Below are positions 58,794 to 63,736 of a stretch of 64,000 bases of DNA, piece after piece. This stretch comes from Alphaproteobacteria bacterium (GTDB lineage: Bacteria; Pseudomonadota; Alphaproteobacteria; MPNO01; UBA830), in the NCBI GenBank assembly GCA_022822405.1, contig JAJEBT010000170.1, positions 1 through 64,000 of the forward strand, in the 5' to 3' direction. A model generated the notes under the pieces. It was not told the origin of the DNA. It searched no databases and saw only the letters and a list, made by a program, of their open reading frames with translations. A program made the translations under genes and the position numbers. Each line of letters starts with the position of its first letter. The stretch's first letter is position 1.

Positions 58794-61700
58794 CTATTCC
58801 GCGGCTTGGGGCACGGCCTTGGTCTTGCGCATCCGCCTCTGTTCGACGATTCCCACGGTCATCGACATCATCGGTGGCACTATCGCCATGGTGAGAACCG
58901 CCGAGAGTGCCAGCCCGCCAAGGACCACGGATCCGAGACCGCGGTAGAGTTCGGAGCCGGCTCCCGGGAACAGCACCAGCGGCAGCATGCCGAAGACCGA
59001 AGTCAGTGTCGACATAAAGATTGGCCGGATCCGGTTGGCCGTCGCCGTCTCGATGGCCCAGATCACGCTGTGGCCGTCGACCCGTATGTGATACAGCGTC
59101 TGGTGAACGAGCAATATGGCGTTGTTGACCACAATGCCGACCAGAATGACGAATCCCAGCATGGTCAGCATGTCGAGGGGCTGGTTGACGTAGACGTTGA
59201 GCAGCGCCAGTCCGCCCAGCCCGCCCGCGGCGGCAACCGGGACGGAAAGCATGACGACCCAGGGGTACAGGAAGCTTTCGAACAGCACCGCCATCACCAG
59301 ATAGACGATCACCAGAGCGAGGAGCAAGTCCATCACCATGTGGTTCCAGGTCGTCAGCAGCTTGTCGGCGCTGCCGGACATGCGAACCCGCACCCCCTCG
59401 GGCAGCCCGCCGATGCGGTCCGGCGTGAGCACCTTTTCGTCGATCAGGTTCATCGCCTCCTGAAGCGGCATCGTGCGTTGCGGACTGACCCGGATGGTCA
59501 TCGTTCGCGCCCGGTCGATCCTCTGGATCTCGGTTGGCCCCGTAGTCACGGCAACGTCCGCCAGATTGCCGACGGACACTATTCGGCCGTCCGATGCGAC
59601 CACCGGCAGTGCGCGGATCGCCTGGGTGGACTCCCTGTCGACGTCGGGGCCCCTGAGAGTCAGGTCAATTCGCTTGCCGTCGACGGTGATCTTGGCGACG
59701 CGGACTCCGTCGTTGAAGGCGTCGACCGACTCGCCGAGTTCCCGGGCCGACAGGCCGTTGTCAGAGAGCCGCACGCGGTCCGGGGTGATCCTGACCTCCG
59801 GTTCGCCAAGCGTCAGCGCCGGACGCGGGCGCACGCGATGCCCCTTGTTCGGGGGCATGGCGCTGCGGGTCGCAAAGAAGATGTCGCGACCGGCACTGTA
59901 GACGGTCTCGAGATCCGGTCCGGCAATCTCGATGTCGATGGAGCGGCCCGAACCTATCGACCGGCCGAACAGCGAGGGCTGGAACACGAAAGCCATCACG
60001 CCCGGCTCGCGCCGTGCGGGAGTCTGCAGGATCGGTATCAGCTCATGCGCCTTGCGCGGGTCCACATGGGTGGCGGCTATGAACATGCGGCCGAGACGGG
60101 CGACGTAGAAGAAGCGGTCGATCTTGCGGTCTTCGGGCGGATTGGCCTCTGCACCGGGACCGCGCGACCAGTGTTTCCTTGTGGCATCCGAGACGTTCTC
60201 GGCGATCGCGTGATTGGTGTCGATGTTGTAGCCGGCAGGGGGAAGGATGAAACCGATTGCGAAATTGCGGTTGCCGGTCGGCAGGTAGTCGAGCTTGGGC
60301 ATGATCGCCACGGTGATGACGGACGCGCCGGCGACGATGGCGGCGACGAACACCAGCGCGACGGGCTTGTTCTGGGTCACGAGGCGCGCGTAACGAACCC
60401 AGAACCTGACGAACCACTTCCCGAAACCGTCGATGACGGGAAGCCGCACCCGGAAGTCCTCCTGGTCTATGCGTGCGCCGAACAGGCTCTTGGACAGGGC
60501 CGGGATGAGGGTGACGGCGACGAGCAGGGACAGCATCACCGAGACCGAAATCGCGACCGCTATGTCGCGGAACAGCTGGCCTACCTCAAGATCCATGATC
60601 AGAATCGGAATGAAGACCATAACCGTGGTCAGCGCCGAGACGAGAACGGCCGGCCACACCTGCTGCGCACCGTCATAGGCCGCCTCGACCGCCGATCTGC
60701 CCTGCTGGCGCATCCGGAAGATGTTCTCGAGAACCACGATCGCGGCATCGACGACCATCCCGACCGCGAACGCTATTCCGGCCAGGCTGATCACGTTGAG
60801 CGACCGGCCGAGGACGGCCATGGCGACGAAGGAGCCGATGACCGATACCGGGATTGCCATCGCGACCACCACCGTCGGCCGCCACGAACGCAGGAAGATC
60901 ATCAGGATGACGATCGCCAGAATGCCGCCGACATAGATGTTCTGGATGACGAGATCGATCGAGGAGTTGATGTAATCGGTCTCGTCGTAGACCTGCTCGA
61001 CGTCCAGTTGCTGCCTCTTCAGCGGTCCTTCCGCCAGTTCTGCCACGGCCCGGCGGACCTCGGCCATCGTCTTGATGACGTTGGCGCCCTGCTCGCGCGT
61101 GACGTTGAAACCGAGCGCCGGCTCGCCGAGCTGGCGCAGGCGCGCCTGCGCCTGCTTGTAGCCGAGCGAAACCGTGCCGATGTCGCGCAACTCGACGCGG
61201 CCGATGCCGCGGCGGTTCGAATCGGACCGCAGGACCACGGACTCGACCATCTGCGTGGTGGTAAGCTCGCCGTCGGTCCTGACCACATAGCGGCGCTTGC
61301 CTTCCTCGACATCGCCGCCGGTGATCGACGCGTTCGCAGCCCGGAGGCGGCGCAGGACGTCGCTCACCGTCATGCCGTAGCGCGCGAGCGCGTGGGGGGT
61401 GACGGTGACGCTCATCTCGCGGTCGGTGTCGCCGAAGATGTTGACGCCGGCCACGCCCTCGACCCGTTCGAGCCGCTCCTGGACGACATTGATCAGGAAG
61501 TCGCCGTAGGACGTCATGTCCCGAGTGTTGCCGTCCGCCCGCGTGAGCACGAACCAGGCGATGGCGTTGTCCTCGGTTCCCGAGGTGGACAGCACCGGTT
61601 CGTCGGCCTCGGCCGGATAGCCCGATATACGGTCGAGGCGATTGGCGACGAGCAGCAGGGCGCGCTCGAAATTCACCCCCGGGGAAAACTCCAGGGTGAT

Positions 61701-61970
61701 CGTGGCGCGACTGCGCTGCGCGCGCGAGGTCATCTTGTTCACGCCCTCGATGCCCTTGAGTTCGTCTTCCTGCGGATTGACGATCTCGCGCTCGACCTCG
61801 GCCGGCGCCGCGCCGCGCCAGTTGGTCTTGACGATGATTACCGGCTGGCGAACGTCCGGCGCCATCTGGATGGGAATTCTTTGCAGGGCGACATAGCCGA
61901 ACAGGATGATCATCAACACCAGCGCAACGACGGCGATCGGGCGTTGAATCGAAAGGCGGATGATGTTCAT
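58794..61970 (-). CDS. RND efflux transporter permease (AcrB/HAE1-like)
   Basis: 1058 residues. Twelve membrane helices in the 1+5 / 1+5 plan with two large periplasmic loops. The start NIIRLSIQRPIAVVALVLMI and VEREIVNPQEDELKGIEGVN are standard. In the proton relay, helix 4 reads GMVVDAAIVVLENI with Asp408 but Ala409 instead of a second Asp. Helix 10 reads GIVVNNAILLVHQ with Asn949–Asn950 where AcrB has Lys940. Such substitutions occur in a large RND subgroup. The start codon overlaps the stop of the adaptor gene by 4 bases. No outer-membrane factor gene is adjacent. Confidence 0.93.
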   Translation of the reverse strand: MNIIRLSIQRPIAVVALVLMIILFGYVALQRIPIQMAPDVRQPVIIVKTNWRGAAPAEVEREIVNPQEDELKGIEGVNKMTSRAQRSRATITLEFSPGVNFERALLLVANRLDRISGYPAEADEPVLSTSGTEDNAIAWFVLTRADGNTRDMTSYGDFLINVVQERLERVEGVAGVNIFGDTDREMSVTVTPHALARYGMTVSDVLRRLRAANASITGGDVEEGKRRYVVRTDGELTTTQMVESVVLRSDSNRRGIGRVELRDIGTVSLGYKQAQARLRQLGEPALGFNVTREQGANVIKTMAEVRRAVAELAEGPLKRQQLDVEQVYDETDYINSSIDLVIQNIYVGGILAIVILMIFLRSWRPTVVVAMAIPVSVIGSFVAMAVLGRSLNVISLAGIAFAVGMVVDAAIVVLENIFRMRQQGRSAVEAAYDGAQQVWPAVLVSALTTVMVFIPILIMDLEVGQLFRDIAVAISVSVMLSLLVAVTLIPALSKSLFGARIDQEDFRVRLPVIDGFGKWFVRFWVRYARLVTQNKPVALVFVAAIVAGASVITVAIMPKLDYLPTGNRNFAIGFILPPAGYNIDTNHAIAENVSDATRKHWSRGPGAEANPPEDRKIDRFFYVARLGRMFIAATHVDPRKAHELIPILQTPARREPGVMAFVFQPSLFGRSIGSGRSIDIEIAGPDLETVYSAGRDIFFATRSAMPPNKGHRVRPRPALTLGEPEVRITPDRVRLSDNGLSARELGESVDAFNDGVRVAKITVDGKRIDLTLRGPDVDRESTQAIRALPVVASDGRIVSVGNLADVAVTTGPTEIQRIDRARTMTIRVSPQRTMPLQEAMNLIDEKVLTPDRIGGLPEGVRVRMSGSADKLLTTWNHMVMDLLLALVIVYLVMAVLFESFLYPWVVMLSVPVAAAGGLGGLALLNVYVNQPLDMLTMLGFVILVGIVVNNAILLVHQTLYHIRVDGHSVIWAIETATANRIRPIFMSTLTSVFGMLPLVLFPGAGSELYRGLGSVVLGGLALSAVLTMAIVPPMMSMTVGIVEQRRMRKTKAVPQAAE

Positions 61971-63736
61971 GGCCGGCCGGTCTCCGTCGGGGCAAGCCTG
62001 TTGGCGATGACGCTCACATCAGCGCCCGGAGGCAGGGCTTCGTTTCCATAGGTGATGACCTTGTCGCCGGCCTTCAGGCCCGAGAGCACGATGAAGCGGT
62101 TGCCGATGGCGTCGCCGAGCCTGATCTGCCTCGGAAACGCCTTGCCGCGCCGCGCGATATAGACGCTCCGGTTGTCGCCGCGATGGACAATGGCGTCCTT
62201 GTGGACCGTGGTGACCTCCCTGATCTCGCCGATCGGAACCATCACGGTGACGCTCTGGTTCACGGCAAACCGCGCCGAGGCGTCCGCGAACTCCGGGATG
62301 AAACGGACCGGCCGGGTTCGCGTGCGCGGATTCTCGTTGGGGATCACGGCGCGGACCGTGCCGCGCAGCCAGGTTCCGTTGTCCAGCTGAAGGCGGACCC
62401 GGACGCCCTCCCTCAGCGCGGCGATCCGGTCGGACGGAACTTCGGCTTCGACTTCGATCTCCTTGTCGTTGATCAACCTGACCACCGGCGTTCCGGTGCC
62501 GACATAGGCGCCGACCTCGACGTGCCGTTCGATGACGGTTCCGTCGTAGGGCGCGCGTATCTCGGTGTTGTCGAGGTCGATCTCGATGCGCTTGAGATCG
62601 GCCCGCGCTTCACGCTCGAGCGAGCGCCGTTCCTCGACCACCGCGCGGCGCGTCCGCACGTCGCTCTCGAGGTCCTCGAAGCGGGCGCGCGAGAACGACG
62701 ACGATTTCCTGAGCCCCTTCATGCGTTCGAATTCCCGCTTCTTCTTGGCAAGTTCGGCCTCGGCCGTCTTGACCATGTTGCGCCTGGTGGCAAGCGCGGC
62801 GGCGAACTTGTCGCGGAGCGCGGTCAGGGATTCCCGATGCAGGGTTGCGATGACGTCGCCCTTGCTCACGCGGTCGCCGACTTCGACATCCATCTTCTGC
62901 ACGGCGCTGCTGATGAGGGCCGCGACACTGCCGGCGCGGCGCGCGACCAGACGCCCGATCACGGGATCCGTCTGCGACTGCGATTCGACGATCACCTCGT
63001 CGACGCGAACGGGGCGCGGCGGACGTCCGCCGGATCGCGGCGCGGCTCCGGTCCTGCCGGCGGATCGGGCCGGCCCGCCGGCGGCGGGTTTCGAGGCGGG
63101 GGCTGCGGTGGTCTTCGGGCATCCCTGTCCGGTAAAGAAACCGCGGATTTCTGCGCCGTCGAGGGTTCCGGACTTGTTGCAGTCCATGTCATCGAAGTTT
63201 GCGGCAAGCGGCCCTCCGGCCTCGTTGCGGTCGATGACGCCGTTTCCGTTTGTGTCGCGTTCCTTGGCGCGGCCGCCGAGCGGCGGGGTCTGTGCGGTGG
63301 CGGCCGGTTTCGGGGTGGGGGCTGCGGCTGTTTTCGGGCATTCCTGTCCGGTGAAGAAACCGCGGATTTCTGCGCCGTCGAGGGTTCCGGACTTGTTGCA
63401 GTCCATGTCATCGAAGTTTGCGGCAAGCGGCCCTCCGGCCTCGCTGCGGTCGATGACGCCGTTCCCGTTTGTGTCGCGTTCCTTGGCGCGGCTGGAAAGC
63501 GCCGTGTCCTGGGCAGCCGCGAAACCTGTCGCCGCAAGCAGCAGGATCATGGCGCAGAAAACGGCCAGACTCGAACCGGTTGTGCGGCCCAGGCACCCAG
63601 CGATGGGGTTTCGGGTCGGGATCGGGCCTCCGTGCTGTCCATCGGACCGGCGACCTGGAACTGTCGCCGATGCGCGGTGCGCGGTCGCCCTGTCAGGATG
63701 TCGCGCCAGCCCGGACGCCTGCAATGTTTCGTTCAT
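61967..63736 (-). CDS. RND periplasmic adaptor with N-terminal EF-hand repeats
   Basis: 589 residues from ATG 63736. A 54-residue leader precedes a hydrophobic signal/anchor (about 55–76, ending AAAQD). Two tandem near-identical blocks follow, each with two EF-hand loops: 88–99 (DTNGNGVIDRSE), 112–123 (DCNKSGTLDGAE), 161–172 and 185–196. After a Pro/Ala linker the membrane-fusion protein proper starts at about 243: VIVESQSQTDPVIGRLVARR, a barrel-sandwich half, a coiled-coil hairpin (REKF-type, about 305–385), then NTEIRAPYDGTVIERHVEVG and a beta-barrel. It should bridge the inner-membrane permease to an outer-membrane channel. Calcium loops on such an adaptor are unusual. Confidence 0.85.
   Translation of the reverse strand: MNETLQASGLARHPDRATAHRASATVPGRRSDGQHGGPIPTRNPIAGCLGRTTGSSLAVFCAMILLLAATGFAAAQDTALSSRAKERDTNGNGVIDRSEAGGPLAANFDDMDCNKSGTLDGAEIRGFFTGQECPKTAAAPTPKPAATAQTPPLGGRAKERDTNGNGVIDRNEAGGPLAANFDDMDCNKSGTLDGAEIRGFFTGQGCPKTTAAPASKPAAGGPARSAGRTGAAPRSGGRPPRPVRVDEVIVESQSQTDPVIGRLVARRAGSVAALISSAVQKMDVEVGDRVSKGDVIATLHRESLTALRDKFAAALATRRNMVKTAEAELAKKKREFERMKGLRKSSSFSRARFEDLESDVRTRRAVVEERRSLEREARADLKRIEIDLDNTEIRAPYDGTVIERHVEVGAYVGTGTPVVRLINDKEIEVEAEVPSDRIAALREGVRVRLQLDNGTWLRGTVRAVIPNENPRTRTRPVRFIPEFADASARFAVNQSVTVMVPIGEIREVTTVHKDAIVHRGDNRSVYIARRGKAFPRQIRLGDAIGNRFIVLSGLKAGDKVITYGNEALPPGADVSVIANRLAPTETGRP
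63087..63271 (-). repeat. EF-hand coding direct repeat, copy 2
   Basis: About 185 bp nearly identical to 63306–63490, offset exactly 219 bp (73 codons). It encodes the second EF-hand pair plus the Pro/Ala linker. The reading frame is preserved, so this is an in-frame tandem duplication within the adaptor gene. Confidence 0.85.
63306..63490 (-). repeat. EF-hand coding direct repeat, copy 1
   Basis: First copy (5' on the minus strand) of the 185-bp duplicated segment, encoding EF-hand loops 1 and 2 and the linker. The few differences from the other copy include synonymous changes and conservative linker substitutions, so the duplication is recent or homogenised. Confidence 0.85.

Follow-up and report, generated by a model that had tools for sequence, protein, structure and literature searches.

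The closest described counterparts of the locus analyzed here are adaptors of RND metal pumps that carry metal-binding terminal domains, i.e., CusB, with its N-terminal domain, and SilB, with its C-terminal CusF-like domain (PMC4446572). Adaptors are linked to the inner membrane via the N-terminus or an N-terminal strand (PMC4446572), and Mg2+ and pH reportedly modulate AcrA (PMC11195059). Within the window, i.e., the whole stretch of 64,000 nucleotides of alphaproteobacterial DNA under analysis, we found an adaptor that resembles CusB and SilB in having a predicted metal-binding domain fused to its end; however, this domain is an EF-hand module rather than a Met-rich or CusF fold, and the accompanying permease is nearer to multidrug-type than to CusA/CzcA models. 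The terminal domains of CusB and SilB are thus the nearest precedents. The initial annotation knew of no described RND adaptor with EF-hands, and we likewise found none in the open-access papers searched, including adaptor and tripartite-pump reviews of 2015, 2021 and 2026; the fusion looks both real and undescribed.

Results

The adaptor gene and its permease partner

The two genes and the main parts of the adaptor are as follows.

58794..61970, minus strand: RND permease, 1058 aa (PF00873 (ACR_tran), 672 bits; adjacency to the adaptor)
61967..63736, minus strand: RND periplasmic adaptor with N-terminal EF-hand module, 589 aa (TIGR01730; Pfam HlyD_3/HlyD_D23/EF-hand_1)
61997..63022, minus strand: membrane-fusion core, i.e., lipoyl, alpha-hairpin, beta-barrel and membrane-proximal domains (Pfam; AlphaFold2 pLDDT ~96; Foldseek to AcrA/MexA/MacA)
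63509..63571, minus strand: hydrophobic core of the signal peptide, ending in ...AAAQ|D, lipobox cysteine absent (sequence)

The initial annotation described an RND adaptor gene overlapping a permease gene, and both points hold: the protein scores 190.3 bits with the TIGR01730 profile (cut-off 94.9), and there is a 4-nt overlap between the permease start ATG and the adaptor stop. Pfam matches above cut-off are HlyD_3 (78.8 bits), HlyD_D23 (69.3 bits), EF-hand_1 (PF00036, 32.4 bits, cut-off 25.4) and EF-hand_6 (PF13405, 28.1 bits, cut-off 25). The protein thus shares with the RND multidrug adaptors AcrA, MexA, MexJ and MdtA the TIGR01730 match, the four-domain core and a gene that adjoins and overlaps that of an RND permease, whereas the two EF-hand pairs ahead of the core and the lack of a lipobox cysteine set it apart from them. 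In an AlphaFold2 model built on 45 sequences the core has pLDDT ~96 with a long alpha-hairpin, and Foldseek puts the whole model near AcrA, TMexC, MacA and MexA (barrel-sandwich, alpha-hairpin, beta-barrel fold). The ...AQ signal site is also present in orthologues. It should be noted that the start codon is uncertain: the ATG at 63736 puts an unusually long stretch of ~55 residues, not seen in the relatives, ahead of the hydrophobic core of the signal peptide, and no other in-frame ATG, GTG or TTG was found between residues 5 and 63.

Adjacency of adaptor and permease is kept at every locus with enough sequence, with or without EF-hands, while the other neighbours differ; no outer-membrane factor was recognized in a Pfam scan of neighbouring proteins. 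The permease fits multidrug-type models better than metal-pump models (599 bits versus 307 with CusA/CzcA) as judged from profile scores, all of which are below the cut-off of the respective model. Both heavy-metal RND profiles also stay below their cut-offs, TIGR00914 (CusA/CzcA) with 307 bits against 701 and TIGR00999 (the CusB/CzcB adaptor side) with 129 against 319. The TM4 motif GMVVDAAIVVLEN (VDAAIV) contains a single Asp, the same in all members checked with and without EF-hands, whereas that of AcrB has two. In TM10, GIVVNNAILLVH (NN) is the same in every such member that reaches this segment. The permease is possibly from an uncharacterized RND subfamily.

EF-hand pairs and their duplication

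The EF-hand module consists of the following features.

63067..63504, minus strand: 219-bp direct tandem duplication with both EF-hand pairs, copies 63067-63285 and 63286-63504 (sequence comparison)
63332..63499, minus strand: EF-hand pair 1, residues 80-135 (unit profile E=7e-35; AlphaFold2 pLDDT 92-94 over most of the pair)
63440..63475, minus strand: EF loop 1, DTNGNGVIDRSE, residues 88-99 (sequence)
63368..63403, minus strand: EF loop 2, DCNKSGTLDGAE, residues 112-123 (sequence)
63113..63280, minus strand: EF-hand pair 2, residues 153-208 (unit profile E=3e-34; AlphaFold2 pLDDT 94-95 over most of the pair)
63221..63256, minus strand: EF loop 3, DTNGNGVIDRNE, residues 161-172 (sequence)
63149..63184, minus strand: EF loop 4, DCNKSGTLDGAE, residues 185-196 (sequence)

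As first proposed, four complete EF-hand loops lie between the signal segment and the fusion domain; all of them have D1, N3, N or S at position 5, D9 and E12, so that every ligand position is filled. Across the 21 units available from the relatives and the window, positions 1, 3, 5, 9 and 12 of both loops hold an oxygen donor without exception, and D1 and E12 of both loops, as well as N3 and N5 of loop 1, are invariant; the linkers around the units are unconserved. Two cysteines, one at position 2 of loop 2 and the other behind the exit helix, occur together in every unit of families f1 and f3 and are absent in f33 and f106; they might form a disulphide.

The two 219-bp copies are ~89-90% identical. 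Since 24 of the 219 bases differ over 73 codons, the second copy is not an echo of the assembly. Comparison of the copies gave dS 0.11 and dN 0.04 for the EF core and dN 0.36 and dS 0.40 for the linker; both estimates are based on few sites and are indicative only. The likeness between unit copies (93% in the window, 71-96% in f3) suits recent duplication or gene conversion.

The model shows two compact EF-hand pairs (pLDDT 92-95) joined by segments with values below 50, and the pairs are therefore predicted to sit on disordered tethers. Modelled alone on 8 sequences, the EF module has a mean pLDDT of 69, and its Foldseek matches are weak (best E 2e-3), most of them being to EF-hand proteins such as calmodulin and troponin C.

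Relatives and history of the fusion

In four alphaproteobacterial families, orthologues have one or two EF units at the same position of the adaptor. The initial annotation regarded absence of the fusion from related genomes as the sign of an artefact; instead, there are 17 EF-bearing adaptors in these four families, and assembly artefact or chance is ruled out by recurrence of the unit with conserved ligands in all of them. Among 61 genomes, EF-bearing orthologues are present in G002-G005, members of the window's family, and in G008, G011, G013, G015 and G019, which represent a second family of its order; two EF copies are also present in G004, of the window's family, and in the sister family f3. 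The loci of G003 and G001 are interrupted by contig ends. The adaptor of G015 (L050:12-1833) is split by a frameshift between the EF part and the core, which may be a sequencing error or a pseudogene. A search of 385 genomes of the class with a profile of the EF unit gave strong matches in 8 (the window's own and 7 more), all in adaptor-sized ORFs with the fusion core, from families f1, f33 and f106, and one weak match to a free-standing protein.

We reconstructed a tree of the fusion core, with the EF unit excluded, from 55 adaptors (17 with and 38 without EF-hands). A single branch (support 100/98, recovered in 100% of bootstrap trees) separates all 17 EF-bearing adaptors, with no EF-less member among them, from the rest, and in a quick tree of the permeases their partners are likewise set apart by one branch (SH-aLRT 100). 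Because both partners form one branch each, it is most likely, judging by these trees, that the module was gained once and not lost within the sample. The number of pairs, one or two, varies within families; therefore, pairs have been duplicated or lost more than once. EF-less adaptors of the same family are widespread: at E 1e-40, 69 of 372 genomes from the class give a match, each at a single place. In most EF-less adaptors, the fusion core begins right after the signal peptide. In nine f2 adaptors (L021-L024, L026-L028, L031 and L137), a Lys/Arg/Gly-rich stretch replaces the EF module between the signal peptide and the core.

Further afield, profile searches of Pseudomonadota (399 and 349 genomes) yielded EF-hand proteins that stand alone, and none of the larger ORFs inspected was an adaptor; a diverged fusion could be missed by such a search, because PF13499 failed to pick up even the adaptor of the window itself. 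The best plasmid matches cover the adaptor core only, with no place covering 80% of the query. A free-standing EF-hand partner gene beside EF-less pumps, expected under gene-fusion logic, was rejected, since no ORF with an EF loop was found in 21 EF-less neighbourhoods. In G025 and G026 (L101:1369-2649 and L102:718-1998; f2, same order), a dienelactone-hydrolase-like protein (PF01738, 30 bits) bears two EF-hand pairs, flanked by the same cysteines; therefore, f2, whose adaptors lack EF-hands, has a similar module on another exported protein.

The probable metal

The adaptor matches the NCBIfam lanmodulin model below the cut-off (43 bits, cut-off 135), and its PDB matches include 8fns and 6mi5; the sub-cut-off match led us to examine a lanthanide reading. 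The hallmarks of lanmodulin (LanM) are four EF-hands, a spacing of 12-13 residues and Pro at loop position 2 (PMC10232371). The window adaptor has four EF-hands, and the spacing agrees within each pair, where 12 residues lie between the loops as compared to ~25 in classical EF-hand pairs, but not between the pairs, which are 37 residues apart. It is a protein of 589 rather than fewer than 200 residues and lacks Pro2, which is found in none of the 42 loops of the EF-bearing adaptors. Carboxylates are also fewer than in LanM: loop 1 has three and loop 2 usually three or four, with one exception. As a control for spacing, we used 30 ordinary EF-hand proteins found here, in which 12 is likewise the commonest loop gap. 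Ordinary bacterial paired EF-hand proteins resemble the module in this gap, in ~36 residues between pairs and in 3-4 carboxylates per loop; they differ in being free-standing, mostly of ~200-300 aa, while the module is fused to an adaptor. No PQQ alcohol dehydrogenase match was found in 14 of the 15 EF-bearing genomes. Given the absence of Pro2, 3-4 carboxylates per loop, a within-pair spacing also common in ordinary EF-hand proteins and a PQQ alcohol dehydrogenase match in only one of 15 genomes, Ca2+ is the likeliest metal of the EF-hand pairs.

Discussion

We propose that the ancestor of this adaptor, encoded in a two-gene RND efflux operon, would have gained an ordinary bacterial EF-hand pair once, between the signal peptide and the membrane-proximal strand, and that the unit would have been duplicated later in some lineages. 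After export, each pair would bind Ca2+ in the periplasm, fold to a compact domain and stay constitutively loaded. Flexible Ala/Pro/Lys-rich tethers would hold the modules at the N-terminus of the adaptor, the usual end of inner-membrane attachment, where they would most likely serve as Ca2+-stabilized docking or spacer modules around the pump's membrane-proximal collar, not as a switch, with up to ~24 EF sites per six-adaptor ring. Two named relatives, FRAM18_bin083 (labelled UBA830) and ERR599075_bin.90, are metagenome-assembled genomes for which a marine source is given; we take the sample names FRAM18 and ERR599075 to mean Fram Strait and Tara Oceans. Seawater contains ~10 mM Ca2+. Since these relatives come from seawater, ordinary EF-hands would be permanently loaded there, presupposing micromolar to sub-millimolar affinity. 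The constitutive docking or spacer module, proposed from the position of the pairs and their tethers, is our tentative preference, with somewhat less than an even chance of being correct. It is favoured over gating because the pairs are tethered at the N-terminus and would be loaded in seawater. Stabilization of the pump by calcium, also envisaged by the initial annotation, is plausible.

The other suggestion of that annotation was a calcium-gated pump, in which the EF-hand pairs would change conformation with periplasmic Ca2+ and switch coupling of adaptor and permease on or off. The loops are complete and conserved in all EF-bearing members, the pairs adjoin the membrane-proximal domain, and there is the precedent of AcrA modulation mentioned above; however, the modules are on predicted disordered tethers, calcium hardly varies in the marine habitat of the named relatives, and the same pump family occurs without the module in most of the class, as the 38 EF-less adaptors in the tree illustrate. 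Gating is thus unsupported and, in our estimate, unlikely. The stronger statement, that periplasmic calcium switches activity or assembly of the pump through up to 24 EF sites on the adaptor ring, is rather improbable as well.

Another reading is metal capture and delivery: the pairs would gather Ca2+ or some other metal from the periplasm and pass it to the permease, in the manner of the N-terminal part of CusB with Cu/Ag. The terminal domains of CusB and SilB are in line with this reading, as is the second best NCBIfam match of the adaptor (CzcB/NccB, below cut-off), whereas the better match of the permease to a multidrug-type model and the lack of any such domain in most of the orthologous adaptor family argue against it, making it quite unlikely. 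Slightly less probable again is a passenger domain that plays no part in the pump, being either cleaved off or neutral in function. The variation between one and two pairs per adaptor and the unconserved linkers would be expected in that case; conversely, ligands and EF core residues are kept in distant members, in which identity of the adaptor core fell to ~34-52%, and no loss is seen among the 17 EF-bearing members. Finally, a lanthanide-responsive, lanmodulin-like module was rejected as very improbable because of the loop chemistry, the spacing seen in ordinary EF-hand proteins and the near absence of PQQ alcohol dehydrogenase matches, the LanM-like features and database matches notwithstanding. 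In descending order of probability, we rank docking or spacer, gating, metal delivery, passenger and lanthanide readings.

Adaptors decide assembly and coupling of RND pumps, and a conserved, predicted calcium-binding module in an adaptor would naturally connect divalent cations with efflux in a way open to experiment. It would also carry the concept of metal-binding adaptor domains over from metal pumps to a multidrug-type pump; if calcium switching were true, calcium would act directly on an RND pump through the module.
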